DNA of 64,000 bases, from contig NZ_REGA01000012.1 in NCBI RefSeq assembly GCF_003841505.1, positions 62,001 to 126,000 of the forward strand, in the 5' to 3' direction. The notes beneath the pieces were generated by a model. That model made no database searches, was not told the DNA's origin, and saw only the letters and a program-made list of their open reading frames with translations. Below are positions 9,277 to 31,253 of this stretch, piece by piece. Source of the DNA: Natrarchaeobius chitinivorans (GTDB lineage Archaea > Halobacteriota > Halobacteria > Halobacteriales > Natrialbaceae). Within the stretch, counting starts at the first letter, position 1. Every line of letters starts with the position of its first letter. Both the position numbers and the translations under genes were made by a program.

Positions 9277-10103
9277 CAGCGAACCTGCCTCGCTTCTCCG
9301 TACTGATGTCCGTCTATCACGACGAAACGGCCGACCACGTCCGGGTAGCGCTCGAAAGCGTGTTCGACCAGACGACACCGCCGGACGAGGTCCTGATCGT
9401 CGAGGACGGACCGTTATCGCCCGATCTCGAGGCGCTGATCTCGACGTTCGAAACGCGGTATCCGGAGACGGTACGAACGATCTCGCTGCCGACGAACCGC
9501 GGACTGGGCGTCGCGCTTCGCACGGGCGTCGAGGCGTGCTCGAACGAGCTGATCGCTCGAATGGATGCGGACGACGTCGCCGTCGAAACTCGTTTCCAGG
9601 ACCAGTTAGCGTACCTCTCCGACAATCCCGAGGTCGACGTCCTCGGCGGATACGTGATGGAGTTCGACAGCAATCCCAACGAATCGGGACGCGTTCGGGA
9701 CGTGCCTAGCGACGCCGAACAGGTTCGGTCCGTCGCTCGTTTCCGGTGTCCTGTGAACCACCCGACCGTGATGTTCCGTCGAGAGGCGGTGCTCGAGGTC
9801 GGAAACTACCGATCGTTTCGCTCGATGCAGGACTACGAACTCTGGATGCGCATGCTGTCCGAGGGGTACACGATTGAGAACCTTCCCACCGTTCTGGTGA
9901 AATGCCGGACGGGGAACGATCTGTTCGACAGGCGGGGCGGGCTGGGATATGCTCGGACCGAGTTTCGGATTCAACGGGAGTTCCTGGAACGCGGTTCGGT
10001 TTCGCCCCTCGTGTTCCTGCTCAACGTAGCGATTCGAACACCCCTCCGATTGACGCCCAACGCGGTTCGTAAGCGGGTTTACCAGGCGTTCTTACGGAGC
10101 TAA
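9273..10103 (+). CDS. Family 2 glycosyltransferase
   Basis: The product is 276 aa with a GT-A fold. It begins FSVLMSVYHDE, has IVEDG near residue 46 and the metal-binding ARMDADD (D98-D101), then VNHPTVMFRREAV and SMQDYELWMRMLSEG typical of EPS-type GT2 enzymes. It should add a sugar from a nucleotide donor to a lipid-linked glycan on the cytoplasmic membrane face. It is coupled by a 4-base overlap to the preceding small frame and lies in the sugar transferase operon. The transferred sugar is unknown. Confidence 0.88.
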   Translation: MTANLPRFSVLMSVYHDETADHVRVALESVFDQTTPPDEVLIVEDGPLSPDLEALISTFETRYPETVRTISLPTNRGLGVALRTGVEACSNELIARMDADDVAVETRFQDQLAYLSDNPEVDVLGGYVMEFDSNPNESGRVRDVPSDAEQVRSVARFRCPVNHPTVMFRREAVLEVGNYRSFRSMQDYELWMRMLSEGYTIENLPTVLVKCRTGNDLFDRRGGLGYARTEFRIQREFLERGSVSPLVFLLNVAIRTPLRLTPNAVRKRVYQAFLRS

Positions 10104-10147
10104 ACCGCCGCTCTCTACGACGACTCTCACAGCACTCCCCGTTGAAC

Positions 10148-11230
10148 CTACTCCGTCTCGATCAGCTCGAGATACTGCGACACGATGGTTTCTACGCTAA
10201 AGTCCCGAGCGTGTTCACGAAGCAGTTCTGGAGCGGGCGGATCGGATACGGTTTCCAGCATCGCGTCCGCCATCCGAGACGCGTCCCCTACGGGAACCAG
10301 TGGCCCGTACGTCCCGTCCTCGAGAATCGTCACGGGACCGCTTCCACAGTTCGTTGCGACGACCGGCGTCCCACACGACATGGCTTCGACCAGCACGTTT
10401 CCGAACCCCTCGGACCGAGACGAAAGCACGAACAGATCGGCCGCCTTCATGTAGGGGTACGGATCGTCGACGAATCCGTACAGACATACTCGGTCCTCGA
10501 GAGACAGTTCCCGCGACTGTGCTTCCAACTCGTCCCGTAACTTTCCGTCACCCAAAACGATCAGATATCCGCCGACGGTCTCTCGAACCTCGTCGAACGC
10601 TCGGAGTAGCGTCGAGAAATCCTTTTCAGGCGTGTACCTCCCGGCAGCGACGATCACCGGTTCGTCGGAGCCGAACCATCGATGCGGAGGCTCGTCATCG
10701 CTGTCTGCCGATGCAAGCTCTACCGGATTGTGGATAACCGAAAGATCCTCCCGAGGAACGTTCGCCCACGACGCAACGTCGCGAGCGACGGAACTCGAGG
10801 CGGCGACGATTTCGTCGGCTTGCCGGTAAAAAACCCTCCCGAGTAGAAAATCGCCTTTGAACGCGACGCTCTTCCACGGTCGATCATCTCGAACCGAGTG
10901 TTCAGTCGCGATTACTTTCGGCTGATATCTGGCCAGTCTAGCGGCTAGTATCGTCAACGCATTTTCGACGGTCATCACGGAGATCACTGCCGATGGCTGT
11001 CTTTCGTTCAGATACCGGACGATAGCGGGAAGACTCCACCGTACCCTCGAAGCGTTGAGCGTCTCGAGGGTAACGTCCGAAGAAACGTGGGGTTCCAACT
11101 CGAGGTCGTCTCTGAGTACGACTAAATCGGTCTCGTGTCCACGGTCGGCTAACCCGTTAGCGAGGTTAACAGCGACTCTTTCAGCGCCGCCGATGGTTAA
11201 GGTGCCTACCAGAACAGCTATATTACTCAT
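10148..11230 (-). CDS. Family 4 glycosyltransferase
   Basis: The product is 360 aa with two Rossmann-like halves. The N-terminal glycine loop is VGTLTIGGAERV (residues about 8-19). The C-terminal half has VAAGRYTPEKDFSTLL and the GT4 signature SSRSEGFGNVLVEAMSCGTPVVATN (about 275-300). It is convergent with the GT2 gene (44-base gap) and divergent from the polymerase-like gene. It marks the right edge of normal base composition; DNA to its right is AT-rich. Donor and acceptor are unknown. It resembles the other GT4 at 19468-20598, so both may act in the same glycan pathway. Confidence 0.88.
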   Translation of the reverse strand: MSNIAVLVGTLTIGGAERVAVNLANGLADRGHETDLVVLRDDLELEPHVSSDVTLETLNASRVRWSLPAIVRYLNERQPSAVISVMTVENALTILAARLARYQPKVIATEHSVRDDRPWKSVAFKGDFLLGRVFYRQADEIVAASSSVARDVASWANVPREDLSVIHNPVELASADSDDEPPHRWFGSDEPVIVAAGRYTPEKDFSTLLRAFDEVRETVGGYLIVLGDGKLRDELEAQSRELSLEDRVCLYGFVDDPYPYMKAADLFVLSSRSEGFGNVLVEAMSCGTPVVATNCGSGPVTILEDGTYGPLVPVGDASRMADAMLETVSDPPAPELLREHARDFSVETIVSQYLELIETE

Positions 11231-11431
11231 AGCTATATTTGACCTGCTAATTGTGGCGATTCAAGCACGTCGATATAGTATAATACTTGCTGCCTAGCTA
11301 CTTCCAGCTTATCACGCAGATGCCAATTAGATTTCTACGTTGTCGAGAAACATCATGGAGTATCCTAACACGCTGTTATTCCAGAAATATCGTCGCAACT
11401 CTTTTATCCAGCTTTGTTGTGACGATGTTCC

Positions 11432-12745
11432 GTGAGTTCGTTCCAGCAGAATAGGCGAATAGCTGATCGACATCTCGAGTCGTTGCTCCGAGGCTTAGTC
11501 ATACTCGCAATTATTTCAGCTTTTGTCGAAGGCCCGATGGTCGAGTTTGGATATATAGGTCTCTTCCTTTTTGATTTAATAATACTGTTTCTTGCTTGTA
11601 CACTCTTACTGTATTTACCAGCGATTGATGAACTAAGTCTACCTTCCGACCGGCTCTTTTTACACCTTACGACAATATACTTACTCTTAGTGGTTACACT
11701 CCCATTTTTAGGAATCATTGTTTATGGACACCCCCTTGAGTACGTCGTTGGCGATATTCGATGGCTTCAAGTGTATTTGGTTGGGGTAATTGCGTTAACA
11801 GTATACTCAAAACACAGGCTTTGTTTCAAATCCGATGTTGTTTATGTGTTTAAATGGGTAGTCGGAATATATTTTTCCATTTTCCTATTTCAGCTTTCAT
11901 TGTTTCTTGAATTATACGATACATCTCCTTTATTGGAGTTTTGGTTTCTAAATCAATCAACATACGGTGAGTTAGGATATCATATCGGACGTTTTTCTGG
12001 AGCAGGCTCTTCTCCATCGCTAATCGGACTTGTTGCATTAATTGGCATCTTATTATTTTTCCATACATATTTTGAAAACAGAGAAAATATTACATTCGGA
12101 TTGTTGTCTCTCGTATTATTGATAGCATCTGGACAACGGACCGCTTTTGTAGCCACCGTTATACTTATAACAGTACTGTTCACTTTCCACACTAATGCAC
12201 TAGATGTTGCGTTAAATCCAAAGGCTGCGGTACCAAGTATTGGTGGTATTTCTGCAGGGTTCCTAATTGCATATAGGTTAAATATTGGCCGGTTGCAAAG
12301 CGATAGTCGATTTGATGAATTGCTAGTGGTCATTCTTAACCCACATAAATTACCCCAAGTGTCTGGACGTGGTCCCCGGTGGGAAGCTGCTATTAGTGAT
12401 ATGAGTGTATACTATCCCATTGGCACGCTAGCTAACCCTGCACATGTATTAGACACAAAAACTATAGATTCATATTATGTAATTGCTTTCACACAAGGTC
12501 ACTTCCTATTGCTATTAGTGTTCCTTTCGTTTATCATAGTGGCCTGGCGAACAATTGTGAAATACCGTTATCAGGGTCGCCAATATGCTATTTTTGCTAT
12601 TATATTCTTTGGTCCCGTAACAATTCTGTCCTCTATGCAGAACTTTTTAACTTCAATAACTGGGAAAATGACACTTGTATTAGCAATAACCTTCATGACC
12701 ATGATGTGTCATAAGAGCATAGGAAACAAAGAGATTAATCACTAA
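11432..12745 (+). CDS. Wzy/O-antigen-ligase-like membrane protein
   Basis: The product is 437 aa with about ten membrane segments and one large polar loop (about 270-345). GSSPSLIG, ASGQRTAFVA and SGRGPRWEAA resemble conserved spots of the O-antigen ligase/polymerase family, whose members join lipid-linked sugar repeats at the outer membrane face. The start is GTG at 11432; the nearby ATG at 11425 is out of frame. Codons are unusually A/T-rich for this genome (many AAT, TTA, ATA), unlike the genes left of 11.2 kb, which indicates recent transfer. Role in polymerisation is inferred from topology and neighbours. Confidence 0.72.
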   Translation: MSSFQQNRRIADRHLESLLRGLVILAIISAFVEGPMVEFGYIGLFLFDLIILFLACTLLLYLPAIDELSLPSDRLFLHLTTIYLLLVVTLPFLGIIVYGHPLEYVVGDIRWLQVYLVGVIALTVYSKHRLCFKSDVVYVFKWVVGIYFSIFLFQLSLFLELYDTSPLLEFWFLNQSTYGELGYHIGRFSGAGSSPSLIGLVALIGILLFFHTYFENRENITFGLLSLVLLIASGQRTAFVATVILITVLFTFHTNALDVALNPKAAVPSIGGISAGFLIAYRLNIGRLQSDSRFDELLVVILNPHKLPQVSGRGPRWEAAISDMSVYYPIGTLANPAHVLDTKTIDSYYVIAFTQGHFLLLLVFLSFIIVAWRTIVKYRYQGRQYAIFAIIFFGPVTILSSMQNFLTSITGKMTLVLAITFMTMMCHKSIGNKEINH

Positions 12746-12883
12746 TTGTAACAATGATCTGATTGGCAAGTCCAAGAAAGCATCGCAGATGGAGGCAAAC
12801 ACCTTCTATTCCATGTGACATATCAAAAGGATTGGGAATGGCACGTCATACGGACATACTCGCATTAGAAAGCAGACAAAACG

Positions 12884-13506
12884 ATGAGCAATCCAGCCTA
12901 CGACACTCTCAGCTTGAACGAGGAGTATTTTGATGACGGGACGGTTCCAATTATACGTACATACAGCGGGGGTCAACCTACTAAACCCCACCTTTTTGTA
13001 ATAAAGTATTTGACGAAACAGAGTCGTCGGATGAAACGGGTCTCGTCCGCCTTCTGGGCCACCTCAATTGCCGGGTCCAATTCCACGTTCGACAGATGCT
13101 CAACGACCGCAAACCAACGTGCTCCCACCATCACGAAGAATACGCTGGCTACGTATCCATCCGGTACCCTAATCACTCGGCGGTGATCACTTTTTCGCTC
13201 GATTCGAGGAGTACGTAACCGCCGAACACGCTAAACATTTCATTCTTGAATCATGAAAAGAGTTCGAAGGTGATTTACTCATTGTGCTGGATGGAGCGCC
13301 GTATTTTCAGCGTCGGCCGTCACGCACCTAGCGGCCCGTGACGACCTCGCATTCATCACGTTATCGGCAACTCGCCAGAGCTGAATTCTGTCAAGGAGTG
13401 CTGGATACAGCTCCAATCCGCTCTCAGCAACAGCTTCCTTGAGCCACTAGACGATCTTACAACGGGATTGTTACAGCTCTTGACCAGCTTTCTATACCTG
13501 AAGTGA
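12884..13506 (+). pseudogene. IS630-type transposase remnant
   Basis: Fragments of one transposase are readable in shifting + frames. IVLDGAPYFQ from about 13281 is the second catalytic Asp block. DDLAFITL follows, and SPELNSVKECWIQLQ with SALSNSFLEPLDD ends at the TGA 13504-13506, matching the SPELNPVEECW block with the catalytic Glu. At least two frameshifts and internal stops break it. The N-terminal HTH region is not recognisable. It is the first of several decayed insertion sequences in the AT-rich island. Confidence 0.7.
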
Positions 13507-13915
13507 GTAACTACTTCTAATGTTTGCTATAGATTGACCGATCTAAGCGCTACGACTCAAGAATCTAACTGCTAATATTGGAGAACGAAACCAGCTGATT
13601 ACCGCATGGGTCGGGTAAATTTAAGAGGCCTCTTTGTGGGATAACTGTCTGCCTACTCTGTTTGTTTGGTCACAACTCAGTAAGTGGAATTCTCAACCAA
13701 TGAGCTTGTGAAGCACTGATTGTCGCGCATTCCAGAGGGCGTAAATTTATTAGTCACTCTCATCACCATTCTTAGTACACAGATATTTGACAAGGGATTT
13801 GATCAAGGTTTTATTACCAGCGTAAATATTGTCTATTGTAACCGATTAGGACGAAGATTCCATTTTAACAGAACTAGTCATTCATGTACAACTATCAGCA
13901 TCTGTCTTTTATACA
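13507..13915. other. AT-rich gap without a gene
   Basis: About 410 bases between the IS630 remnant and the methyltransferase gene show no credible reading frame. TCTTTTATACAATG just before 13916 includes a TATA-like word that is too close to serve a leaderless start at that ATG. Confidence 0.4.
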
Positions 13916-14662
13916 ATGAAGGCTACTCGCCTAGATCAAGTTTTTGATGAAGACAGTAGACAAATACATTCAAACTATTCACATATCGGCCATATGTATA
14001 CCGGTGCATTCTCAGAGTACTATTATAAACGATTTGACCAAGCGTTAAGATGTTCTAACGTGGACGGGTCTGATCGAGTTCTTATTGTAGGTGGAGGGAC
14101 AGGCGTCTTTGCACTCACACTTGTTGATCTCGTCGATGAGCTCGTATTTAATGACCTCGCTCGAGAGGATCCCCTCTTCGCAACTGTCCGATCGATATTC
14201 GATTTGGCTTCTGTCGATGACGAAAACCTGAGATACGTTGCTGCGGACGTGGAAGATCTTCCCTTCAAATCAAATACTTTTGACGTGGTGTTTGCGTTGG
14301 ACGTGCTTGAACACGTGCCCGACGAGAATAGCGGAATCAAGGAGATCTATAGAGTGACGAAAGATGGCGGTAGTACCATAATCTCTGCCCCAATCGAAAT
14401 TGGCCCTGCTATGGCCGTACGCGAGGGATACAGATTTATTGACGGCAGAAGGCACAATGTCGAATCGATATCTGAGTTTTTTGAGTCACTAATTGGAAAC
14501 CCTCCACTTGAAAAAAATCAGCATCATCGAGGGTACGATTATAGACAGACCACTGCTCTACTTCGAAGCTATTTTTCCGATGTTTTCGTTGAGTACTGTC
14601 CTTATCCCAATCTCCGTTGGCTAAATCCCACTGCAATTATTTCTGCCGAACTAGACCCATAG
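13916..14662 (+). CDS. SAM-dependent class I methyltransferase
   Basis: The product is 248 aa. Motif I is VLIVGGGTGVFALTL (about residues 55-69). It is followed by AADVEDLPFKSNTFDVVFALDVLEHVPDE-type blocks (about 103-130, quoted here as separate motifs VEDLPF and LDVLEHV), typical of Methyltransf_11 enzymes. The N-terminus carries an aromatic stretch (SEYYYKRFDQAL). It probably methylates a sugar or lipid-linked intermediate in the surface-glycan pathway; the substrate is inferred from neighbours only. Codon use is AT-shifted like the other island genes. Confidence 0.82.
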   Translation: MKATRLDQVFDEDSRQIHSNYSHIGHMYTGAFSEYYYKRFDQALRCSNVDGSDRVLIVGGGTGVFALTLVDLVDELVFNDLAREDPLFATVRSIFDLASVDDENLRYVAADVEDLPFKSNTFDVVFALDVLEHVPDENSGIKEIYRVTKDGGSTIISAPIEIGPAMAVREGYRFIDGRRHNVESISEFFESLIGNPPLEKNQHHRGYDYRQTTALLRSYFSDVFVEYCPYPNLRWLNPTAIISAELDP

Positions 14663-14679
14663 TCTCGAGAATTTCGCCG

Positions 14680-14778
14680 ATGACACAAGACCCCATGAGA
14701 CGGATGTTGTTCGTCGTACTCAGCCTGCTGATTCAGAACGTCAGGCGGTACTTGCACTGGGCACTGGTCTTTAGCTAA
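14680..14778 (+). pseudogene. Transposase C-terminal scrap
   Basis: A 32-codon frame (RRMLFVVLSLLIQNVRRYLH) resembles the hydrophobic C-terminus of haloarchaeal IS transposases. It lacks the rest of the protein. It sits directly after the methyltransferase gene, at a mosaic of insertion-sequence debris. Confidence 0.4.
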
Positions 14779-14811
14779 GCCTCAGCAGTCGGTTTGATGG
14801 TAGTAGTGAGC

Positions 14812-15410
14812 TGTTCTTGGAGGATCGGTCGTTGCTTATGTATTTTCTGAGCGTCAGTGATCAGTCGATGTAGCAGTGACGGGAGTGAGTAAGCGAGGTA
14901 CTCCCTCAGTCCGCAGAAGATGAGCTGGGCGTGCGACCGGAGGGTCGCCGCCCAGCGTCCGGCGGGAATACGACCCCATCATCAGCGTGCTCAATAACCA
15001 GACCAAGCAAATCACGACTCACCACCAAGGGTAACAACGCTGCATACAGCAGAATCTCTACGACGTGCTTCTCCGTCGCGTCGAACTTGTCCAATTCGTA
15101 CTATAGTGACAACTGAAACGATTACTATAGGTCAGCCGGGCGAAACTCATCCCGAGACAGGTTCGTGATGTACAGATGGTAGTCGGCGGCGTCCTCGTTG
15201 CGGATGCCGACGGCGCGGAATCGTTTCGTATCTCGTAACTACTTACCCGCGTACTCTCGTCAGTCGAACTCGATCTCGATTTCCACATCGATGTACTTAC
15301 GAGAGAAATTGTCCACGCAATCGAAGATCTTCTCGCCTTCCAGGGGAATGGTGCGGCCGCGCCATTCGCGTAACTCGAAGGAGACGGCGATGCGCGTCAC
15401 CCGTGACGCG
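14812..15410 (-). pseudogene. ISH8-like (IS4-type) transposase remnant
   Basis: Read on the minus strand, REWRGRTIPLEGEKIFDC (about 15375-15315), FSRKYIDVEIEIEFD and AADYHLYITNLSRDEF (about 15205-15150) precede a break. FDATEKHVVEILLYAALLPL and SRDLLGLVIEHADD (about 15085-14980) then resume the same protein. This order fits the catalytic and C-terminal half of ISH8-type transposases. Stops and a small foreign footprint at 15100-15130 interrupt it, so it is dead. Confidence 0.65.
15100..15130. repeat. Solo IS end flanked by 7-bp direct repeats
   Basis: ACTATAG occurs at 15100-15106 and again at 15124-15130, enclosing an 17-bp tract that reads on from the first copy as TATAGTGACAACTGAAACG. That word closely resembles the arm of the 84-bp element at 49383 (TATAGTAACAACTGGAA). 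It looks like a footprint left by loss of an element inside the ISH8-like remnant. Confidence 0.4.
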
Positions 15411-15823
15411 CTCGACGTCAAACAGCCAATCTGGATGTTCAGAGACAGTGCCTACGATATCCTTGACTGGCACGACTTCCTGCTTCAAGCAGGAGTTGTG
15501 CCGATCGCCCCGTACAGTCCACGAAACACCACTGATACGCTCGATATCGAATACCGCGTCGAAGACAGAATCAGCGAATTTACCGAGGATGTGACGCTCA
15601 AGCGTTCGATCCTTAATGAGACCTACAAGCGTCGAACGCAAGTTGAGCGAACGTTCGGAGCGTGTTCAGACTGCGGCCTCGGGCGCGAAGCGTCCCGAGG
15701 CCGCGTCCGTGCGCGGGTACAAGCGTATCTTGGACTGTGTCTCCGAGTGATCGTCGCCATCACGAACTACGAACAGGGTGAAATCCAGGCAGAACCAAGC
15801 TCGTGGCATGAGATGAATTGTTT
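15404..15823 (+). pseudogene. C-terminal fragment of an IS4/IS5-superfamily transposase
   Basis: The + frame reads IWMFRDSAYDILDWHDFLLQ, then APYSPRNTTDTLDIEYRVED, YKRRTQVERTFGACSDCGLG and LCLRVIVAITNYEQG, a familiar C-terminal half of haloarchaeal DDE transposases. The N-terminal half is missing and replaced by the ISH8-like debris. The frame stays open into the downstream gene, giving an artificial fusion of 513 codons. The real downstream gene has its own promoter at 15871. Confidence 0.7.
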
Positions 15824-15870
15824 GACACCCTCTTCGCTGAGCTACCTTGTATCAATATCGAATCAAAAAA

Positions 15871-15880
15871 TAATAAATAG
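15871..15880 (+). promoter_or_regulatory. TATA box of the first ParB-like gene
   Basis: TAATAAATAG lies about 33 bases before the ATG at 15909. The surrounding 80 bases are nearly repeated before the second ParB-like gene (16871-16880), so the promoter was duplicated with the gene. It supports starting translation at 15909 and not inside the transposase scrap. Confidence 0.6.
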
Positions 15881-15908
15881 CTGTCCAATGCTTTTTCGAC
15901 AGTCAGAT

Positions 15909-16739
15909 ATGGCTACGTACTACGCTGAGAGGGCTCTTAATATACTTCGGGAGGAAGGCATTATTGAATTATATAGGAAGTTTTCGAGATTTATTTTTAG
16001 ACACCCGATGGGGCTATTAGACCCTCAATGTCGCCGTCGTTTCAAGTTTCACACTTGGAAAAATCATTTGCAAAATCGTATCCGCTATGATGCGCCACCT
16101 GACCCATACAACACCATTCAGATACGACCAAGCAACATAGATTATAGAGTGGGTTATACTCACAGGATGAGGACAGTTCAACGAGTTAGGTATAAGGGAA
16201 TAGCTCAGACAAAATCAGGAAACTGGGATAAGAACAGAGTAGCTGTTAATGACTCGTTTATTATTAAAGGGATTCAAGAACGCTTTGGAGAAGGTAAAAA
16301 CTGGGAGAATACCAAATATTACAACTATGTCCGGGAGAAATTTGCCAAAGATAACACAAAATACACAGAAATAGGGTTCAATTGTTTAGATGGTTATTTA
16401 CAAGAGAATTTCAATTCTGTGGAAGAACTTTTTAATAAAATAAAATATGGAGGGTATAAGTCGAACCATGATGGTCAACACGTTAGACCAGGGTCTACTC
16501 AACCTATACGGGACAAATTGGAAGTATTAGTCACAATTGATAGAAATGGCGAAATAAATTTTTTTGAGGGAAATCACCGATTTGGGATAGCCCGGGTATT
16601 AGATATAGAAATCCCGGTTCACGTGGTTTGTAGACACAATCAATGGCAAGAACTCCGGGACGACATCTACAACAATGGCCTCACTGAGGGGCATGAAGAG
16701 TTACATGATCATCCCGACCTTCAAGACGTACTCAACTGA
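15909..16739 (+). CDS. ParB/sulfiredoxin-like protein 1 of surface-glycan locus
   Basis: The product is 276 aa. The C-terminal part (about residues 205-276) holds VTIDRNGEINFFEGNHRFGIAR followed by an IPVHVV strand, WQELRDDIYNNG and DHPDLQDVLN (split here into motifs). EGNHRFGIA matches the G-x-x-R box of the ParB/Srx fold, a nucleotide-binding loop in ParB and in ParB-fold kinases. Upstream, FGEGKNWENTKYYNYV is shared by all three paralogues in this window. No DNA-binding HTH is present, so classic partitioning is unlikely. A kinase-like or nucleotide-hydrolysing role in glycan synthesis is inference. ATG 15909 is preferred over 15888 from promoter spacing. Confidence 0.75.
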   Translation: MATYYAERALNILREEGIIELYRKFSRFIFRHPMGLLDPQCRRRFKFHTWKNHLQNRIRYDAPPDPYNTIQIRPSNIDYRVGYTHRMRTVQRVRYKGIAQTKSGNWDKNRVAVNDSFIIKGIQERFGEGKNWENTKYYNYVREKFAKDNTKYTEIGFNCLDGYLQENFNSVEELFNKIKYGGYKSNHDGQHVRPGSTQPIRDKLEVLVTIDRNGEINFFEGNHRFGIARVLDIEIPVHVVCRHNQWQELRDDIYNNGLTEGHEELHDHPDLQDVLN

Positions 16740-16870
16740 GTGCAGAGAGTTCTGGGAAAGGAAAAAATGTTTCTCTTCTCGGTCGAGAGGAGATTGAGAT
16801 CCCATCGTTTGGGACTTTCTCCGTGGGGCTGCATTTGCTGAGTCATTTTGTATCAATCCTGGATCAAAAA

Positions 16871-16880
16871 GTAATAAATA
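16871..16880 (+). promoter_or_regulatory. TATA box of the second ParB-like gene
   Basis: GTAATAAATA lies about 33 bases before ATG 16910, in an 80-base block that closely repeats the one before the first paralogue. Both copies also share ATGCTTTTT-GACAGTCAG between TATA and start. Confidence 0.6.
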
Positions 16881-16909
16881 GCTGCTCAATGCTTTTTGGA
16901 CAGTCAGGT

Positions 16910-17602
16910 ATGACCATTCATTATCCTAAGAGGGCTCTTGAGATACTCCAGAATGGGGGGTCTCTTGAACTATTTAAAAGGTCAATCAGATTTCTTAATA
17001 AAAATATTAGGAGAAAGATACAATATACTAAATACGATGCTGTACCTGATTTTGGAAGAGTTTATTCAGTGCCAGTTTCTGGAGTAAATTACACACTGTG
17101 GGATGACGATCTAAAACATTATTTTGGGGGAGAGATACCACCTGAGCGGATATGGACTGGAGAGTGGCACAAATTAAAAAAGGATTTTTCCACAACATAC
17201 ATTCACCGTAGCTTCAGACGAAGATTTTGTAAAGGAAAAGAATGGGAGCAGACACCATATTATGAAATATTAAGAGATGGTGGAAAGTATAACGAATATC
17301 AGACGGCGATTGAATATTTGAATAAGTACGAGAATATATACCACAATATCAAACAAAATGGATATTGTCAGGATGGGTATATTTCGGTCTATATTGGTCC
17401 TGCTGGAGAGTATATCCGAAAGGATGGTGCTCACAGGTTATCTATTGCAAAAATAATTGATAGTATTGATATGATTCCGGTAAAAGTCCATTCAATACAC
17501 AAAGAATGGCAAGAACTACGGGATAGAATTTACAACAATGGTATCCCTAAGGAGCATGAGGAGCTACGTGATCATCCCGGCCTTCAAGACGTTCTCAACT
17601 GA
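16910..17602 (+). CDS. ParB/sulfiredoxin-like protein 2 of surface-glycan locus
   Basis: The product is 230 aa and a tandem paralogue of the gene at 15909. Shared blocks are FCKGKEWEQTPYYEIL (about residues 108-123), YIRKDGAHRLSIAKIID (about 175-191), EWQELRDRIYNNG and DHPGLQDVLN at the end. The GAHRLSIA box is closer to the ParB GERR-type loop than the GNHRFGIA of copy 1. The N-terminal third is basic and differs between copies. Strong AT bias marks it as island DNA. Duplication of promoter and gene with divergent N-termini suggests different partners. Confidence 0.75.
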   Translation: MTIHYPKRALEILQNGGSLELFKRSIRFLNKNIRRKIQYTKYDAVPDFGRVYSVPVSGVNYTLWDDDLKHYFGGEIPPERIWTGEWHKLKKDFSTTYIHRSFRRRFCKGKEWEQTPYYEILRDGGKYNEYQTAIEYLNKYENIYHNIKQNGYCQDGYISVYIGPAGEYIRKDGAHRLSIAKIIDSIDMIPVKVHSIHKEWQELRDRIYNNGIPKEHEELRDHPGLQDVLN

Positions 17603-17789
17603 GCTTTAAGTTCCTCCAAGACAACGCCAATAGTGGAAGTAATAGGTGGTAACCACGGGTTTGTGGCCACAATATAAATCTTGATCACACGGCAGCTACA
17701 GGTATAGACTCCAGATGGACTCTTCCTCTGGCCACACCAATCTCGATCTGAGAGTTTGAGTTTACGCTCATATACCTACTTCTACAAAG
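17603..17789. other. Short AT-rich gap
   Basis: No gene is seen between the second ParB-like gene and the IS5-type debris. Confidence 0.3.
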
Positions 17790-18270
17790 CCCTCTGACAT
17801 ACAGAGATGGACGCGCCGTTTTTCGACCGCGGAACGTCAGTAAACACTACTTTAGGCGAACGAATTGACGAGTTTAGACTCTCAAAACAACTACTCTCGT
17901 CTCTCCAGAGACAACAGCTGTCCTCAACATTCATTGTACGAACGAGAATTGGCAGGACCCTCAACTCGGCTGGTAACTCGCCGCTGCAACGCGGGCGAGT
18001 TGTACAGCCCCGCTGCCGACCAAGACTACGATTGGCAGCAATTACCGATAAACGGAGAGAAAGGGACACGAGGCCGCTGATCAAGCATCGTGAGTCCGCA
18101 CCATTGGTCAGGCGCGCTATCTACGTAGTAGATGAGCCCCTCTACGGACAGAGAGCGCTGTCTAAGACCGTTACTTCGCTGACCAAGGTACGGTCGGCGA
18201 CGCCGTACATGAGTATCCCTAGCATCAAGAGCCTCATGACATCCTCTATCTCATATTATTTGAAGCATCT
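17790..18270 (+). pseudogene. IS5-family transposase remnant
   Basis: Scattered + frame pieces read DAPFFDRG, YSPAADQDYDWQQLP and TRPLIKHRESAP, then EPLYGQRALSKTV. These correspond in order to the FDR start, the AADKGYD block, the RPLIKHRE block and the YGQRSxxETVNS block of haloarchaeal IS5-type transposases. Multiple frameshifts and a missing middle show it is dead. Confidence 0.65.
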
Positions 18271-18410
18271 TTAGCAGTGGAAAGTATGTGGATCCGCCGG
18301 AATATGGCGATCCAGCATAAACCCATAGGGTAAGTAAGGTTAAACAAGGGAATATTAATATCTGAATCCAATACATTCATCACTCATATATAAAATTGTT
18401 GGCGAGAATA

Positions 18411-18418
18411 TTTATACA
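18411..18418 (+). promoter_or_regulatory. TATA box of the sulfatase-fold gene
   Basis: TTTATACA lies about 30 bases before ATG 18444, giving a transcript with little or no leader. It indicates the gene is transcribed on its own despite the upstream IS debris. Confidence 0.6.
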
Positions 18419-18443
18419 TATGGCTGGTGTTCTTTAGACCACC

Positions 18444-19346
18444 ATGTATAGTATTGTCGACATTAAAAGCGCAATTGAGCAACCATATCTCTTTGTTAGA
18501 GAATTTAATACATTATGGAGTCAGCGACTTGGATTACGTGAACACAATCCAAATGGGACGGGAATTTTTGACATGGACTGGGATAATCTCATAATTTTGG
18601 ATGCATGTCGTTACGACATTTTTTCCGAGGTCGCGAACCTCCCGGGTGAACTTGAGCAACGCGAAACAGCGGGCGCTGCAACCAGAGAATTCATCGATGC
18701 AAATTTTGCCGGAGAGGAGCACCATGACACTGTCTACGTGACCGGAAATTCGTGGATATTGAAACTTGATGCAGTGTCAAGTGTTCACACTGTTTATGAT
18801 GTAATCGCGGATCCTGACGATGGCAACAAACCTACGCGCATCACCGACTGTGCAATTGATGTAGCCGAGAAACATCCGAACAAACGCCTGATCGTTCATT
18901 TTATCCGTCCACACCATCCGTTTATCGGTCCATTGGCGAGCAGCCACTTTGCGGACATTGAGCAACCCCCAGATCTTTATAATCGAATTCAACGTGGTGA
19001 GGTGGACATATCTGATTCCATGTTGAGGCAGCTTTATATCGAAAATTTAGAATATGTTCTCCCATACGTTGAAAAGTTGATGGCTGAACTTAAGGGAAAG
19101 ACCATTGTGACATCCGATCACGGGGAATTGCTGGGTGAGCGAACTGGTCTCCTCCCGATAAAGACATATGGACATATTCCTGGCCTCTATACGGATAAGC
19201 TAGTTACTGTTCCGTGTCAGACCTATCAAAATGGATCAAGACGAGAAATATTTGCCGGTGAACCACGCGGTGAACCAGACTATTCATATGCTGTATCGGG
19301 AAAACCAATTGACAAACGTCTCCGGGAGTTGGGTTATAAACTCTAA
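18444..19346 (+). CDS. Alkaline-phosphatase-superfamily (sulfatase-like) protein
   Basis: The product is 300 aa. NLIILDACRYDIF (residues 48-60) carries the first metal-binding Asp (D53), VHFIRPHHPFIG (151-162) follows, and TSDHGELLGER (223-233) and YGHIPG (242-247) give the DH and H metal ligands of the fold. The CxPSR site of formylglycine sulfatases is absent. It is soluble with no signal peptide, so it may act on cytoplasmic nucleotide or lipid-linked glycans as a hydrolase or phospho-transferase. Such genes are common near haloarchaeal glycosyltransferases. Codon use is AT-shifted. Confidence 0.78.
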   Translation: MYSIVDIKSAIEQPYLFVREFNTLWSQRLGLREHNPNGTGIFDMDWDNLIILDACRYDIFSEVANLPGELEQRETAGAATREFIDANFAGEEHHDTVYVTGNSWILKLDAVSSVHTVYDVIADPDDGNKPTRITDCAIDVAEKHPNKRLIVHFIRPHHPFIGPLASSHFADIEQPPDLYNRIQRGEVDISDSMLRQLYIENLEYVLPYVEKLMAELKGKTIVTSDHGELLGERTGLLPIKTYGHIPGLYTDKLVTVPCQTYQNGSRREIFAGEPRGEPDYSYAVSGKPIDKRLRELGYKL

Positions 19347-19467
19347 TATTATATAGACATACATTATAACTTTATTTATCACTTGGGAGATATATGGTGC
19401 CGATGCTTCCCACTAGCAACATGTCTGGACTTTGTCCCAATAAGAAGTTAAGAAAGTAAAACACTGA

Positions 19468-20598
19468 TTACCAATCTAAAGCATGGACATATTTATCAGC
19501 CGTATCAGAAATCCTGAACATTTGGTCCCATTTGTCACTAGCCGTATCCGCTGTATTTCCATCTAAGCAGTTAGCGATCTCTTTCGCCATCGAATCGACA
19601 TCATCGACTGGGACAAGTGAGCCAACACTGCTGTCATTTAAAATCTCTCGTGGACCGTTTGGACAGTCAGTCGCCACAACCGGTGCGCCGCAGGCCAACG
19701 CTTCGATAAGTACATTGGGGCATCCCTCCCATCTCGAAGAAAGTACGAACGCATCACACTTTGCCATATACGCGTACGGGTTTGCGACAAATCCCGGTAA
19801 GTCGATTCTTTCCGCGATTCCAAGACCCTCTGCGAGTTGAAGAAGTGAATCTCGTTCGTCTCCCTGACCTAAGATGATCAACCGAGATTCAGGATATGTG
19901 TCAATTTTGTTGAACGCTCTAACCAGTGTATCGAAGCCTTTTTGATCAGATAGTTCGCCCACGCCAAGGATAACGGGTCCTACTTCAGTTCCAAGCCATG
20001 GATGATCGACGGGTTCTTCACGAGCTGTCAACAGCGATTCGTCCACTACTGGATTATAAATCGTCGTCGCCTGACTAGGATCAACCCCAAAATGTGTGAC
20101 GACATCTTGTGTCACCCCTTCTGAAACTCCGATAACGTGATCGGAATGTGGGTACGTGAGCTTCGCTGCCAGATGTACAATCTGGTGTTTTGGATGGGAC
20201 AACTCCTCTGTTTTTGCGCTCATAGTATTGGATATCCGAATTATGAGGCGGCTATCTACGCTGGAGAGTTTCTCGGCGACGATTGCCGTGACGTTGGCAG
20301 TATCGATCGTCGACATCATCACGTCCGGGCTTGACGACGACATGTACTGTACGAGCGAGGGGACTGCTGCAAGAAACCGACGAGTGTCGAGGTCAAATAC
20401 ATTAACGTTGTCGGAGACATCATCCAGATACTCTCCTTTCCTTTGGACGAGAACGATGTCTACCGTGTATCCTCTGTCCGCAAATTCGTTCGCGAGTCGG
20501 ACCATGACCCTTTCAGCGCCGCCACCCCTAAGCGATGGAAGATACAGACAAATGTGGTTCACAGAGCGATCTTCCGTGTGTGTTTGCGATTCGTTCAT
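19468..20598 (-). CDS. Family 4 glycosyltransferase
   Basis: The product is 376 aa. YLPSLRGGGAERVMVRLA (residues 19-36) is the N-terminal donor loop. LGVGELSDQKGFDTLVRAF and SSRWEGCPNVLIEALACG (about 285-305) are the GT4 C-terminal signatures. It starts 4 bases after the stop of the third ParB-like gene, which itself overlaps the ABC transporter, so all three are one transcript read right to left. It should extend a lipid-linked glycan exported by that transporter; the sugar is unknown. Confidence 0.88.
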   Translation of the reverse strand: MNESQTHTEDRSVNHICLYLPSLRGGGAERVMVRLANEFADRGYTVDIVLVQRKGEYLDDVSDNVNVFDLDTRRFLAAVPSLVQYMSSSSPDVMMSTIDTANVTAIVAEKLSSVDSRLIIRISNTMSAKTEELSHPKHQIVHLAAKLTYPHSDHVIGVSEGVTQDVVTHFGVDPSQATTIYNPVVDESLLTAREEPVDHPWLGTEVGPVILGVGELSDQKGFDTLVRAFNKIDTYPESRLIILGQGDERDSLLQLAEGLGIAERIDLPGFVANPYAYMAKCDAFVLSSRWEGCPNVLIEALACGAPVVATDCPNGPREILNDSSVGSLVPVDDVDSMAKEIANCLDGNTADTASDKWDQMFRISDTADKYVHALDW

Positions 20599-20602
20599 CT
20601 GT

Positions 20603-21391
20603 TTATACCATATGGAATTTCGTCAAATGTGTGTGGACTGCCTTGCCACTTCTCGGATCTAAATCAGGATGGTTCTTGGTCCATATCTCATCTTGTTCGC
20701 TTCCTTCGTAAACTCGATCGCGAAGCTCCTTCCATTTTTCATAACGAACCCGAATGCGGACCGGGATCGATTCGAGCTCTAGAATTTTTGCGATCGACAA
20801 TCGATGAGCACCGGCACACCACAGAAGTTCCCCGTCACGAGCGACGTACACTGTAATTTGCTTTTGTTCTAGCGGAAAGTATGGCTCATAATCTAATCCT
20901 TGTATTTTTCGTTTCGACAAGCGTCGTTGGGTTGTATATCCATCCCGTTTGATCATTGTATACAGTTTCTCTATCTGGGAACAACATCGATCCAAATCAG
21001 TGGTGTCAGTCATTCCTTTGTACGAGCCGTACTTAGCAATCCACTCTTTCATACGGCTGTAGTACGGTGTCTGATTCCATCCGACACCCTCGTTGAAGCG
21101 CTTCTCGAACGACCGAAAAACCACATCGTCCTGAAACGCCCGTAACTCTCGATCCCAGTTTCCACCGACGACGACCGAGGGGATCACTGGAGAAACCGTG
21201 GGCGATTCGGCGGGACACCGATCGATCGAAGCTGGTGACACCCATACAAGGTCGTACGATTTTAGTGGTGCTCGATATCTACGGCCTGAATGGAGCCAGG
21301 TCATCAGATAGCCACTATATCGCCGAAACTTTCGCTCAAGGCGGTTCTTCAGACCTAAACCGGTCGATTCTGAGTTAAACTGTGTAATCAT
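20603..21391 (-). CDS. ParB/sulfiredoxin-like protein 3, between flippase and glycosyltransferase
   Basis: The product is 262 aa. It shares with the copies at 15909 and 16910 the block FNEGVGWNQTPYYSRM (about residues 104-119), the loop GELLWCAGAHRLSIAKIL (about 192-209), IPVRIRV, KWKELRDRVYEG and NHPDLDP. The GAHRLSIA loop fits the ParB/Srx nucleotide-binding box. Its ATG overlaps the ABC transporter stop by 4 bases, and a GT4 gene begins 4 bases after its own stop. This tight operon is the best evidence that the family works in glycan assembly or export. Base composition is closer to the core genome than the other two copies. Confidence 0.8.
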   Translation of the reverse strand: MITQFNSESTGLGLKNRLERKFRRYSGYLMTWLHSGRRYRAPLKSYDLVWVSPASIDRCPAESPTVSPVIPSVVVGGNWDRELRAFQDDVVFRSFEKRFNEGVGWNQTPYYSRMKEWIAKYGSYKGMTDTTDLDRCCSQIEKLYTMIKRDGYTTQRRLSKRKIQGLDYEPYFPLEQKQITVYVARDGELLWCAGAHRLSIAKILELESIPVRIRVRYEKWKELRDRVYEGSEQDEIWTKNHPDLDPRSGKAVHTHLTKFHMV

Positions 21392-23199
21392 TGCGATTGC
21401 AGCGCATATAATGATGAATACGTACTCGAGTTCGATACCAACTCTTCGTGGGGGCCTGCCTCAACGATCCTGCCGTCTTCCATCGTGTAAATCCGATCCG
21501 CGTTGGTGACCGTCGAGAGCCGATGCGCGATTACTAACATCGCGTAATCCCGATTCATCGATTCGATCCCTTCGTGTACCCGCTGCTCGAGCGACGTGTC
21601 CAGATCGCTCGTCGCTTCGTCCAGTATCAGCAGATCGGCGTCCTTCAACAGGGCGCGAGCGATCGCGACGCGCTGGCGCTGACCGCCGGAGAGTTTGACT
21701 CCTTGATCGCCGAGCACTGTGTCGTAGCCGTCCGGCAGCTCGTCGAGGAACTCGGTCACCTGGGCGATCTCGCACGCCCGTTCGACCGCCGATCGCGTGG
21801 CACCGCGGTTTCCGACGGTGACGTTCTGTCGCAGGGTGTCGTTGAACACGTGCGGGTCCTGCCTGACGACGGTGACTCGAGAGCGCCACTCCTGGATATC
21901 GAACGCGTCGATCGGTCGATCGTCGGCTCGAATCACACCGCTGTCCGGCTCGTACATCCGCGCGAGTAACGAGGCGATCGTGGATTTGCCGGCACCCGAG
22001 GGGCCGACGAACGCGACGAAGTCGTCGCGGTGGAACTCGAACGAGACCTCGTGGAGGACAGTCTCGTCGTTCGAGTCGTAGCTGAACGAGACGTCGTCGA
22101 ACTCGAGACGATCGATCGAACCCGGGACGCTCCGCGACGTCCCGGTTCGTTCTCGGTTTCCTTCGAGTTCGTCGATGAACTCCTGTGTCCGAACGAGGTG
22201 GGGAAGTTCGCTATCCACGCGATAGACGTATTTGTTGAGGTTGCTGATCTTCGGCCCGAGCTGGAACATCGCGAACAGAAAGACACCGAGTTGCCCGAGG
22301 TTCATCCCCGAAAACGTCAATGCCAGGTAAATGAGCACGAAGACGGCGATAGCGGTCATCAACTGGTAGTAGTTCGTGATGGCGGCGTCGTTCCGCTCGA
22401 CTTTGATCCGGTTGGTCTCGAACTTCGCCGCCGATTCCGAGAATCCCGATCGGAGTTCGTCGATCATCCCGAACAGCTTCACATCTCTGATTCCCTGCGT
22501 TCCGGCCTGCGCTCGAGACTGAATGCCCTCTTTCGCGTCGGCCACCTCGTCGCCGAGGGAGTAGCCTGTGGTGAGGACGTTTCTGAACAGGAGCGTCATT
22601 CCGCCGAGAAATACCGCCGTGAGGAGCGTCAGTACCGGGGAGAGAATTAGCGCGATCGTGAGGTACATCAGGGCGAGGAGTCCCTGTTCGACGGACCGCA
22701 ATGCGTACTTGATCACTTTCCCAGCGTACTCCGCCTGCGTGACGATGGCGTTCAGGATGTCGTCCGAGCCCTCCTGATCGAAGTACGAAATCTCCGCCTC
22801 GAGCGCACGATCGAACGATTCCTCCTGCAGGTGGCGGACGTACTTCGTCTCGATTGCGGCCCGGAACCAGCCGACCAGAAACGACGTGGTGTATCGAACC
22901 GTCATCACGCCCGCGACCCCGGCGACGAGGTAGCCGAGCGTGAACGGAATGCCGAGCGTCTGGTAGGCCAGCAGAAACATCCCGAGGAGTCCGTCGGCGT
23001 CTTCGGGCGGCGTATCGGCCTGTGCGACGTCGACGATCGGCATGATGAAGCTCAGGCCGACTCCCTCGAGGAGGGCGGCGACGACGCTCAGTACGATCAC
23101 CGCCGCGGCGAACCGCGGCTGGAACTTGGCGACGCGATAGAGGGCGTGACCCTTCTCGCGCCACGTCAGGTCTAGGTCGACGTCATCAGTATCGGACAT
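21388..23199 (-). CDS. ABC exporter/flippase (fused membrane and ATPase domains)
   Basis: The product is 603 aa with a six-helix type IV exporter domain (about 30-325) and an ATPase domain with FVGPSGAGKST (about 394-404), LSGGQRQR (about 503) and LLILDEATSDLD. This matches MsbA/PglK-like half-transporters, which form dimers and flip lipid-linked oligosaccharides or export lipids. The operon with a ParB-like protein and a GT4 points to a lipid-linked glycan as cargo. It starts at ATG 23199, with a TATA box at 23251. Confidence 0.88.
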   Translation of the reverse strand: MSDTDDVDLDLTWREKGHALYRVAKFQPRFAAAVIVLSVVAALLEGVGLSFIMPIVDVAQADTPPEDADGLLGMFLLAYQTLGIPFTLGYLVAGVAGVMTVRYTTSFLVGWFRAAIETKYVRHLQEESFDRALEAEISYFDQEGSDDILNAIVTQAEYAGKVIKYALRSVEQGLLALMYLTIALILSPVLTLLTAVFLGGMTLLFRNVLTTGYSLGDEVADAKEGIQSRAQAGTQGIRDVKLFGMIDELRSGFSESAAKFETNRIKVERNDAAITNYYQLMTAIAVFVLIYLALTFSGMNLGQLGVFLFAMFQLGPKISNLNKYVYRVDSELPHLVRTQEFIDELEGNRERTGTSRSVPGSIDRLEFDDVSFSYDSNDETVLHEVSFEFHRDDFVAFVGPSGAGKSTIASLLARMYEPDSGVIRADDRPIDAFDIQEWRSRVTVVRQDPHVFNDTLRQNVTVGNRGATRSAVERACEIAQVTEFLDELPDGYDTVLGDQGVKLSGGQRQRVAIARALLKDADLLILDEATSDLDTSLEQRVHEGIESMNRDYAMLVIAHRLSTVTNADRIYTMEDGRIVEAGPHEELVSNSSTYSSLYALQSQ

Positions 23200-28048: not shown

Positions 28049-29566
28049 TTACGATGCGGCCCAGACGTTCGTCGAGGAGACGGACGCGAACTGGACGTTC
28101 TCGTTCTCCTGCATGCTCACCTGAGCTGCGCTCGCGGTGTCACCGTCTTCGGCGATCGCGACCGCGCCCTGCTGCTCGAGGACGTTCTCCTGCGTGATGA
28201 ACTGGCTCTGGGCGATCTGCGAGGTGGCGTACTGCTCACCGTCGTGGGTCTGGATCGCGTTGCCAGCGTAGTCGAAGGCGACGCCCGGAGCGTCTTCGAC
28301 GTCTTCGCCGCCGAGGATTACGCTCGAGGTCTCGCTGTGGACGACACCTTCGTGGACGTAGCCGGGTGCGGCGTAGACGTTCATGGCGTCGGCGTAGCCG
28401 ACCTGTGCGTTGATGTTTTGCTGCGTGGCCAGCTGGACGGCGGTGGCGTCGCTACCGTTGGTGGCGATCGCCATCGCGGTGTTCTGGAGGTTGACGTTCA
28501 TCTGTTCGGCGCGCTGATCTTGCTCGACGGCGGACGTCGCGGATTGGACCTTGTCGCCTTTCTTGTGGTGGTCGTCTTCCTTGTCGTCGTAGAGCTTCTC
28601 GACGTCCTGTTCGATGTCGACGACCGAACTCTCCCCGGAGGTTGCGACGTGCATGCCGGCGAGGGAGCTGATGACGTTTTCGGCGTCCGCAGCGCCGATC
28701 TGCTGGTTGAGGTTGGTCTGTTCGGTGATCTGGATGGCCGTTGCGGAGCTGCCTTCACCGACGGAGATCGCGACGGCACCGTCTTGCTGGTTGATGTTCG
28801 TCTGTTCGACCGACTGCCCCTGCGCGACGGACGCGCTCGCGGACTGGTCTTCGAACTCGCCGTCGCCGACGTAGACGTTGGTCGCGTTCGCAACGCCTTG
28901 CTGGAGGTTCTGGTTCGACTGCTGGGACTGCTGGAGCGCGATCGCTTCGCTTCCGTCTTCCGCGATCGCGAACGCGGTGTTCTGTTCGTTGTAGTTCAGC
29001 TGCCCGACTTCCTGGGCCTGGGTCACTTCGGCGGTTGCAGCCTGGTCGGGGTCGACCTCTCCTTTGTCGCCTTTCTTGTCGGCGACGCCCCAGCCGTCGA
29101 AGTGCTTTCCGTCGCCGTTACCGATAACGACGTTGACGGTGCCGACGTTTTCGAACTGGGTCGACTGTTCGTTGACCGCAGACGCCTGCGCGATCTGATC
29201 GTTACTGTTGTACTGGGTCGCCTCCTGGATCGCGTTGGCCTCGCCACCGTCGATCGAGATCGAGGTCGCGTTCGCCTGCTGGTTGATGTTAACCTGTTCG
29301 ACGTCCTGATACTGCGTGACTTCGGCATCCGCGATCTGATCACCGGCCTCGAGTTCCTCGATGTACTCCTCGAGGGTCTGATCGCCGAGATCAGCGCCGA
29401 AAACCAGATACAGTTCTTCGCCATTATCGAGCGCGTGGACCGCGCCATTCGAAGTGTCGTCGCCCGCAGCGGCCATCGGAGCTCCGACAGCCAGCATCGA
29501 TAAGGCGACGATACACGCCATAAGAGCCGTCGTACACTGTGAACGTGTCGTCGTCGTGGTAGTCAT
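28049..29566 (-). CDS. Secreted Gln/Asn-rich repeat protein, curlin-like (putative amyloid or beta-solenoid)
   Basis: The product is 505 aa. A signal peptide (residues 1-35, ending GAPMAAAGDD) is followed by five copies of a 55-60-residue unit at about 79-130, 177-231, 240-297, 341-397 and 445-501. Each reads roughly V-x-Q-x-Q-x-V-x-Q-x-N-x-N-x-Q-x-x-A-x-A-I-x-x-x-G-x-x-A-x-A-x-Q-x-x-x-Q-x-N-x-x-x-Q. Alternating Q/N and small hydrophobic residues predict stacked short strands, as in curlin. Acidic linkers (for example about 318-340, KLYDDKEDDHHKKGDK) separate units. There is no membrane anchor. ATG 29566 is chosen because the signal peptide follows directly; ATGs at 29605 and 29629 would add an unlikely basic lead. 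Two smaller relatives lie divergently at 30474 and 31254. Confidence 0.75.
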   Translation of the reverse strand: MTTTTTTRSQCTTALMACIVALSMLAVGAPMAAAGDDTSNGAVHALDNGEELYLVFGADLGDQTLEEYIEELEAGDQIADAEVTQYQDVEQVNINQQANATSISIDGGEANAIQEATQYNSNDQIAQASAVNEQSTQFENVGTVNVVIGNGDGKHFDGWGVADKKGDKGEVDPDQAATAEVTQAQEVGQLNYNEQNTAFAIAEDGSEAIALQQSQQSNQNLQQGVANATNVYVGDGEFEDQSASASVAQGQSVEQTNINQQDGAVAISVGEGSSATAIQITEQTNLNQQIGAADAENVISSLAGMHVATSGESSVVDIEQDVEKLYDDKEDDHHKKGDKVQSATSAVEQDQRAEQMNVNLQNTAMAIATNGSDATAVQLATQQNINAQVGYADAMNVYAAPGYVHEGVVHSETSSVILGGEDVEDAPGVAFDYAGNAIQTHDGEQYATSQIAQSQFITQENVLEQQGAVAIAEDGDTASAAQVSMQENENVQFASVSSTNVWAAS

Positions 29567-29636
29567 GATTCGTTTGACTTGAGCCGTGAGAGTCTTTTGT
29601 TTCTGCATCTCCACGGCGCAAACCTTCATATCCGGA

Positions 29637-29658
29637 TGACAGACTTTGTTATCTGTCA
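29637..29658. promoter_or_regulatory. Perfect inverted repeat upstream of the Q/N-rich gene
   Basis: TGACAGA (29637-29643) and TCTGTCA (29652-29658) form a perfect 7-bp inverted repeat with an 8-bp AT-rich spacer, 71 bases before the ATG at 29566. The layout suits a dimeric regulator binding near the promoter. No regulator is identified. Confidence 0.4.
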
Positions 29659-30447
29659 GTTGAATCGCGTCCGAAACGGCCTACCGTATCGAAGCGAACT
29701 ACTTATCGAGAGAAACCACGCCCTTCACGGCGGTAGCTGATGCGAACTGTCGTGACGAATCCCCGTCACAGCTGTGGCCTGCCCCGGTTGTTCGATACCG
29801 ACCTACGGCAATCCATACGAGGTCACTCAGAGTGGTTATCGTTGTCAGCCGAAAATCCCGAGGCCCGGCCGTCGGCGTCGTATCTCGACCCGTCGCACGA
29901 AAACCCTACTTTCCGGCGATCCCCAGTCCACGAGACGCGTTCGACGCGTCGAAGCGTCGGAGACGAACGAGTGATGTGGACTGTCGTACCGATCTACCGG
30001 TGAGACTGTGATCCGTTCGCGGCCACACCGGAAATGACGGGGGTAGGCCCTACGAGACAACAGCGAACCTGTAACTCTCGTTTGCAGACTGTTTCGGCGG
30101 TCAAACCTGACGGTTACTGGAAATCAGATCGCGAAACGATGGCAATAGCCTTTCCGTAAGTGAGACAGATCGCAGTTTCACAATTTTGATGTGACCGAGA
30201 CGACACAACGAATCGCGGTAGGACACTCACGTTTGCCAACCGTTTCACGTTCGACTATCTACGGTTTCAGCGCTTCTAACCCTATTATTCGCCACGAAAC
30301 CGTTGTTCGGATTCAAGAGGCAGTCCGTCCCCAGTGTCACCTGGGCAACGCGTCACATCGGGGCATATCTGGGTGGTTTCGGCGTTCGATCCGGTACGAA
30401 CGATCGAGCCAGGAAATCACCCTGCTCCGTTTCGGTGATGCGTTCCT
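29659..30447. other. About 790 bp between the divergent Q/N-rich genes
   Basis: Several short open frames exist but none has convincing codon bias. The right part (about 30300-30370) repeats words found before 31254 (GTTCGGATTcAA..., CCTGGGCAACGCGTCAC), which shows that the upstream region was duplicated with the small genes. Confidence 0.4.
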
Positions 30448-30454
30448 TATAAAC
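30448..30454 (+). promoter_or_regulatory. TATA box of the first small Q/N-rich gene
   Basis: TTATAAA lies 20-26 bases before ATG 30474, suggesting a leaderless transcript. Confidence 0.55.
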
Positions 30455-30473
30455 GTCAAATGATAGATTCACT

Positions 30474-30945: not shown

Positions 30946-31253
30946 AACGCGAGCGCGATCGATAAAGCGCGATAGTCGTTGATATCGGCCCGATGGTCGT
31001 TGATATCGTTCGAGTGACGGTCAACTGTACGAGGACATATCCAGCAGTAGGACACTCACTCGAGAAAACGATCAGAATTACGGACCGTTTCGTGGGGCCT
31101 CAGTCCAGAATTAGCCTCGTAACTGTGGTCCGGATTAATACCATCCCCTGTAATGACTCTCTCCCGGGCAACGGGTCACGATGCGGGGACTGGTAGCGTC
31201 TACCTGCGAAGAGCCGCCGCTCTGCGACACCCCGTGTTGCCCGTAGATCAACA

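Follow-up and report, generated by a model that had tools for sequence, protein, structure and literature searches.

We examined a 64,000-nucleotide stretch of DNA, referred to here as the window, in which a gene on the minus strand (28049 to 29566) encodes P0001, a secreted protein of 505 amino acids plus a stop codon that carries five Gln/Asn-ladder units. The open reading frame, its translation and the conserved family to which it belongs identify it as the large subunit of the locus. An initial annotation had placed a secreted repeat protein at these same coordinates, correctly and with the strand left unstated. Its signal peptide can also be recognized: residues ~1-35 (29462 to 29566, minus strand) are hydrophobic and Sec-like without an RR pair, and the hydrophobic stretch is kept in homologues. 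A conserved N-terminal segment outside the repeat follows, HALDNGEELYLVFGADLGDQTLEEYIEELEAGD (29339 to 29437, minus strand), with YLVFG(A) near-invariant in alignments. The units, all on the minus strand, span residues 81-133 (unit 1; 29168 to 29326), 179-231 (unit 2; 28874 to 29032), 245-298 (unit 3; 28673 to 28834), 345-397 (unit 4; 28376 to 28534) and 449-501 (unit 5; 28064 to 28222), and a ladder position in the first half of unit 5 is altered from N to L. Linkers of ~45, 13, 46 and 51 residues separate the units, and the protein ends in ...TNVWAAS, with no PGF-CTERM anchor at this C-terminus. The five units of the initial annotation are thus present, but they measure 53-54 residues rather than 55-60.

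To assess the repeat against chance, we shuffled the mature P0001 sequence 5000 times at the same composition. The motif Q-x3-Q-x-N-x-N-x-Q occurred in nine copies in the mature protein, compared with 0.006 ± 0.08 (maximum 1) in the shuffled sequences, and Q/N pairs at a spacing of two were twofold enriched (36 observed vs 18 expected). The alternation of Gln/Asn with other residues, earlier described as strict, is not so: the register shifts by a step at unit positions 18-19, and a turn occupies 26-29. The repeat is not a product of chance, because it is retained in homologues down to ~37% identity. Outside the units, residues ~50-75 (YLVFGAD...EEYI) and ~138-165 (VYVVxG...FDGW) of P0001 resemble copies of one another; this likeness between the N-terminal segment and the linker of units 1 and 2 is clearest in a Tat-exported branch of the family (ELYLVFGADTDEKGLGKWVDDH and RAYIVFAEETGCRKFSGWVARED).

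Two small secreted companions are encoded on the plus strand. P0002 (30474 to 30908; 144 amino acids), divergent from the large gene, has a single unit split by an acidic insert into half-units at residues 55-80 and 115-142, and P0003 (31254 to 31718; 154 amino acids), 73% identical to P0002, has a split unit at residues 56-~82 and 132-151. Both match the unit profile weakly, yet the match spans both halves. Upstream of the large gene lies a conserved element, GATAACAAAGTCTGTCATCCGGATA (29629 to 29653, minus strand), whose core, GATAACAAAGT, is ~87 nucleotides before the start codon. In the form GATAACAAAGTCTGTCATCnGGATA, it precedes the large gene at ~25 loci, many of them in Natrialbaceae (L061-L073, L075-L078, L080, L083, L085, L086, L092, L114), and it occurs only once in its own genome; it probably serves the large gene as promoter/operator or as 5' leader. 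The small genes have a conserved upstream stretch of their own, approximately GTGTGA...TGCGTGCC...GATCAACnATGAA (for example, window positions 30354-30473 and 31134-31253). This stretch differs from the large-gene element, so the divergent genes seem to be separately promoted. Elsewhere in the window, positions 10001-22000 have a G+C content of 41-53%, compared with 57-68% over most of the remainder, and are possibly an integrated mobile element.

Spread and naming of the family

We identified 71 distinct large homologues of P0001; all come from Halobacteria, and the number of units is exactly five in each. Among the 60 nearest genomes, which were sampled first, the gene was present in 27 besides its own, all of the same taxonomic family as the window. 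We also scanned species genomes and obtained 57 named loci in Natrialbaceae (including Natrialba, Natrinema, Haloterrigena, Halobiforma, Halopiger, Natronorubrum, Natronococcus and Halovivax), in Haladaptataceae (Haladaptatus and Halomicrococcus) and in Halegenticoccus; the closest named relative was Natrarchaeobius chitinivorans (76%). When 392 genomes spread evenly over the class were searched, the unit profile matched 84, 79 of these 84 falling within the family of the window, and no members outside Halobacteria were found in a phylum-wide sample of 393 genomes.

Database entries name these homologues only as hypothetical proteins or PGF-CTERM sorting domain-containing proteins. We searched P0001 and its homologues against Pfam, NCBIfam and PDB sequences, and the repeat had no match in any of them. 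The Pfam and NCBIfam names that did arise were chance matches, save for PGF-CTERM tails in two homologues, and a PDB profile match to PhoQ (3bqa; E value 0.02-0.09) was dismissed as a short Q/N-rich stretch. No report of the family was found in the literature searched, in which subscription journals were mostly not covered. By sequence, this is an unnamed and undescribed, real conserved haloarchaeal family of secreted repeat proteins, and both the haloarchaeal origin and the possible new repeat family of the initial annotation are borne out. The one-unit companion genes, the constant number of five units and the evidence for burial of the ladder had not featured in it.

Conservation and predicted structure of the unit

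We aligned 50 units from ten proteins, which fitted together readily. None of the positions Q5, Q7, Q11, N13, Q34, Q38, N40, N42 and Q44 varies among them, and A20, A30, A32 and N52 hardly do. We then computed column conservation over 55 full-length homologues, reaching down to ~37% identity. Within the units, 51 of 67 Q/N columns were at least 95% conserved, compared with 10 of the 155 remaining ones; in the linkers, 9 of 171 columns reached this level. Among all columns that did so, the conserved residue is Q or N in 53 and A in 20. As the Q/N columns of the units are far more conserved than the linkers, selection acts on the ladder. A low-complexity, largely disordered Gln/Asn-rich protein with no defined fold would account for the high Q/N/A/G content and for the low confidence with which linkers are predicted. 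Such position-specific invariance across many genera, the fixed unit number and the fairly confident strands of the units speak against this reading, which we hold to be improbable in the extreme.

The two faces of the unit differ in charge. In both strands, charged residues of either sign account for no more than 0.2% of ~5,500 alignment cells on the ladder side, whereas the opposite face is variable and contains 21-31% Asp and Glu alone. Haloarchaeal protein surfaces are acidic. The simplest reading is that the ladder is buried, since its face is uncharged and the opposite face is acidic and variable; most likely, judging its inward direction from the absence of charge, it forms a polar zipper of Gln, Asn and Ala. 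These same observations bear on the idea that an exposed Gln/Asn face recognizes a repetitive ligand such as a polysaccharide, mineral or ice, in the manner of beta-helical antifreeze proteins. Ice-binding proteins do use regular flat ladders to bind repetitive surfaces, and two structures of this kind appear among our non-significant fold hits, but an exposed ladder in a halophile predicts the reverse of the charge distribution found, and we regard a binding array of this kind as very improbable. On the side opposite the ladder, unit positions 14, 21 and 23 are hydrophobic in 92-99% of cases, and part of the non-ladder face may therefore pack against something. With the turn at positions 27-28, a like-faces-like register is predicted, in which Q11 would face Q44, N13 would face N42, N15 would face N40 and Q17 would face Q38. 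Internal homology between the two half-units (score 18.3, exceeded by at least one of 40 shuffles) is no more than suggestive.

Structure prediction, put forward in the initial annotation as a check on its reading, gave long strands in every unit of two proteins that are ~41% identical. For mature P0001, AlphaFold2 with 55 sequences yielded a mean pLDDT of 63.8 and a pTM of 0.55, with unit blocks mostly at pLDDT 64-87 and disordered-looking linkers. The distant Haladaptatus homologue had a mean pLDDT of 66.3, with blocks mostly at 70-91, and each of its units was modelled as two strands, mostly of 20-32 residues, joined by a short turn. Both models thus contain ten long strands, two per unit; at a pTM of 0.53-0.55, they have linkers below 50 and a wide spread among the five models. 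The predicted strand-turn-strand repeat is of the cross-beta or beta-arcade kind, as are conserved ladder residues that, to judge from the lack of charge, would point inward. We consider it very likely that the units are stacked beta-arches.

Foldseek returned no significant fold match for the models (best E value 0.74). A second fold search against the PDB gave seven hits, including CsgA (E value 0.74), FapC, known for a Greek-key cross-beta layer per repeat, in second and fourth place (E values 3.0 and 5.5, TM ~0.05) and two beta-helical ice-binding proteins. That CsgA and FapC lead this list is a hint only, and we did not count these matches as evidence given that they are non-significant (E values 0.74-5.5, TM ~0.05). 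Viral fold matches were also dismissed (best E value 0.0026, probability 0.08, TM 0.08).

Companion genes, export and possible assembly

Small unit-bearing genes accompany the large gene well beyond this locus. At 32 of 55 loci, a small ladder gene in divergent orientation is found no more than 1.5 kilobases upstream, most commonly at a distance of 500-700 base pairs; up to three small genes adjoin one large gene. Small proteins in other genomes match the unit clearly (E values down to ~1e-16). Among 26 distinct small unit-bearing open reading frames, 22 carry a single full unit and none carries a second; one of the 26, L117, seems to be part of a broken large gene and not a companion. In G002, a congener of the genome that contains the window, both the large and the small gene are missing. 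In Haladaptatus salinisoli, five tandem small open reading frames (L116:5902-7858) comprise four whole units and one half, and no large gene was found within this 13.8-kilobase locus; it is possible that such tandem frames were fused to give rise to the five-unit protein, or that they encode five separate subunits. We clustered open reading frames around 83 loci and, judging from the cluster sequences, found no conserved secretion, nucleation or assembly genes nearby. Besides the small ladder proteins, the clusters comprised only putative housekeeping genes, to judge from their sequences (LarC-like, CDC48-type AAA ATPase, CBS-domain and RadB-like).

The initial annotation's claim of secretion is supported by signal peptides throughout the homologues and by PGF-CTERM anchors in some. 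In the main branch, signals are Sec-like, and most members lack a twin arginine. In a second branch, 15 sequences carry Tat signals; they fall together to one side of a tree branch with support 77/97, and eight of the 15 are from Natrialbaceae and are placed beside Haladaptatus sequences, some of which are plasmid-borne, a placement that suggests gene transfer between families. Many of the proteins at the Tat-branch loci (L099-L110, L112, L113, L115) have Lys-rich C-terminal tails. In several homologues the C-terminus consists of an acidic linker followed by PGFG and a membrane helix, and the PGF-CTERM profile matches two of the 55 (best E value 5e-7), with more visible by eye. Given these signals and anchors, the family is located at the cell surface or outside the cell. 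Unrelated PGF-CTERM/archaeosortase surface proteins have nothing but the anchor in common with some homologues, and nothing in common on this count with the anchorless P0001.

How many molecules take part in a stack is the point on which the main rival explanation differs. In a monomeric beta-solenoid of fixed length, the five arches would stack within one molecule and be capped, giving a rigid surface stalk or adhesin rather than a polymer, with the one-unit proteins as caps or partners. The five units of all 71 large proteins, together with the conserved linker lengths and N-terminal segment, suit this design, and PGF-CTERM forms resemble anchored surface proteins. Tat signals in one branch imply folding before export, which also argues against the idea that an amyloid precursor must stay unfolded in that branch. 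The small proteins fit a solenoid poorly: an intramolecular ladder is impossible for a one-unit chain, and both the presence of up to three small genes per large gene and the five tandem small frames in H. salinisoli, where no large gene was found, would be better explained by polymer subunits than by a single cap. We therefore regard the solenoid as unlikely, although it deserves more weight than the other alternatives. A one-unit chain has no ladder partner within itself and so would stack on other molecules; we infer from the sequences that this is the strongest argument favouring assembly.

A two-component cross-beta assembly is supported by the five-unit large proteins, the one-unit small ones, their divergent pairing and their joint absence in a congener. 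We propose that each 53-residue unit is a beta-arch, with two long strands around a G/S turn, and that units would stack in register so that the invariant Gln and Asn line up between two parallel sheets as hydrogen-bonded ladders without charge. Five stacked arches would then make up the large protein, and one arch each of the small divergent proteins. After Sec export, open edges may dock onto other subunits outside the cell, building up a fibre or sheet of amyloid type, either on the cell surface or within the matrix, with a possible role in matrix formation or adhesion; in some species, PGF-CTERM-anchored versions may hold the assembly to the cell and possibly serve as its base. Polymerization itself seems to us moderately probable, and we lean, with slightly more reserve, towards the whole as a new haloarchaeal two-component secreted cross-beta system working like curli or Fap fibres, with the look of a counterpart to bacterial biofilm amyloids that evolved independently. 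Against a fibre stand the fixed number of five units, which also suits a closed monomer, the Tat-exported branch, the lack of conserved nearby secretion genes, the weak unit match of the companions at this locus and the lack of a significant fold match.

Comparison with known surface fibres

The initial annotation had described a curlin-like ladder logic without the curlin motif, and had suggested profile searches against curlin repeats and archaeal proteomes. These returned the haloarchaeal homologues and no curlin match. The motif S-x5-Q-x-G-x2-N-x-A-x3-Q was present in none of 55 homologues, while a slightly relaxed form recovered all five CsgA repeats. Pfam gave no curlin match for P0001 or the 55 homologues, and the curlin profile PF07012 had no hits above the cut-off in 41 haloarchaeal genomes, with a positive E. 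coli control. By hhalign, the unit scored 8.5 against curlin repeats, within the shuffled null (maximum 11.3), compared with 21.3 for the CsgA vs CsgB control. Curlin membership was ruled out on these profile, motif and profile-profile failures, as the controls succeeded.

Similarity of design is a separate matter. Curli, like this family, have secreted imperfect strand-arc-strand repeats, internal Gln/Asn ladders, and a main and a second subunit, CsgA and CsgB (PMC10192328). Unlike the 53-residue unit with its two strands of ~20-30 residues, curli repeats average 23 residues with short strands; an N...Q pair flanks a hydrophobic core there, whereas five to seven ladder Q/N residues line each strand here; and repeat number varies from 4 to 62 in curli (PMC10192328) but is fixed at five in this family. 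No csgDEFG-like genes were seen near the haloarchaeal loci, nor was any csgG-, csgE- or csgF-like conserved export family found, by cluster sequence, among the clusters around them. The FapC/FapB system of Pseudomonas is similar in its longer imperfect repeats, long linkers, stacking of different repeats within one chain and conserved Asn/Gln hydrogen-bond network in the inner core (PMC12392863), and in FapC and CsgA fibres alike, the imperfect repeats contain internal networks of Asn and Gln that are conserved (PMC12392863, PMC12822426, PMC10192328). It differs in that FapC of UK4 has three repeats rather than five, there is no sequence match to FapC or FapB in the PDB, no fap-like operon was seen at the haloarchaeal loci and the fold match is non-significant (E value 3.0). 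FapC chains of the PDB were not matched up to an E value of 10 by the protein, the family profile or the unit profile, and the family is not recognizably Fap by sequence. Within archaea, the Methanospirillum sheath protein SH is likewise secreted and stacks beta-arches into an amyloid-like surface structure (PMC10593813); this methanogen sheath, however, is built of giant beta-rings with a cap domain and six beta-arches of differing side-chain composition. If it belongs anywhere, the family would appear to be a variant among the broad beta-arcade or functional-amyloid-like proteins.

We tentatively put forward, as a bolder possibility held with less confidence, that this is an independently evolved two-subunit functional amyloid in which an almost purely polar Gln/Asn zipper core replaces a hydrophobic one and suits molar salt. 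One-unit subunits would elongate or seed the fibre, and the five-unit protein, perhaps derived from fused tandem one-unit genes, would form the fibre body or an anchored base.

Staining of Haloferax volcanii biofilms by the amyloid dyes thioflavin T and Congo red was reported in 2014, with a candidate gene suggested and left unproven (PMC4180959). No haloarchaeal amyloid protein was found in the literature we searched, with subscription journals again mostly outside its coverage. The family described here offers a concrete, single-locus putative amyloid candidate in a haloarchaeal family other than that of Haloferax volcanii, and gene deletion is practised in Natrinema, one of the carrier genera (PMC6085418). 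If these proteins do polymerize, archaea would have arrived anew at the curli and Fap solution of repeats plus Gln/Asn ladders without the export machinery of those systems, and the resulting protein fibre would tolerate salt and have a fixed number of units.
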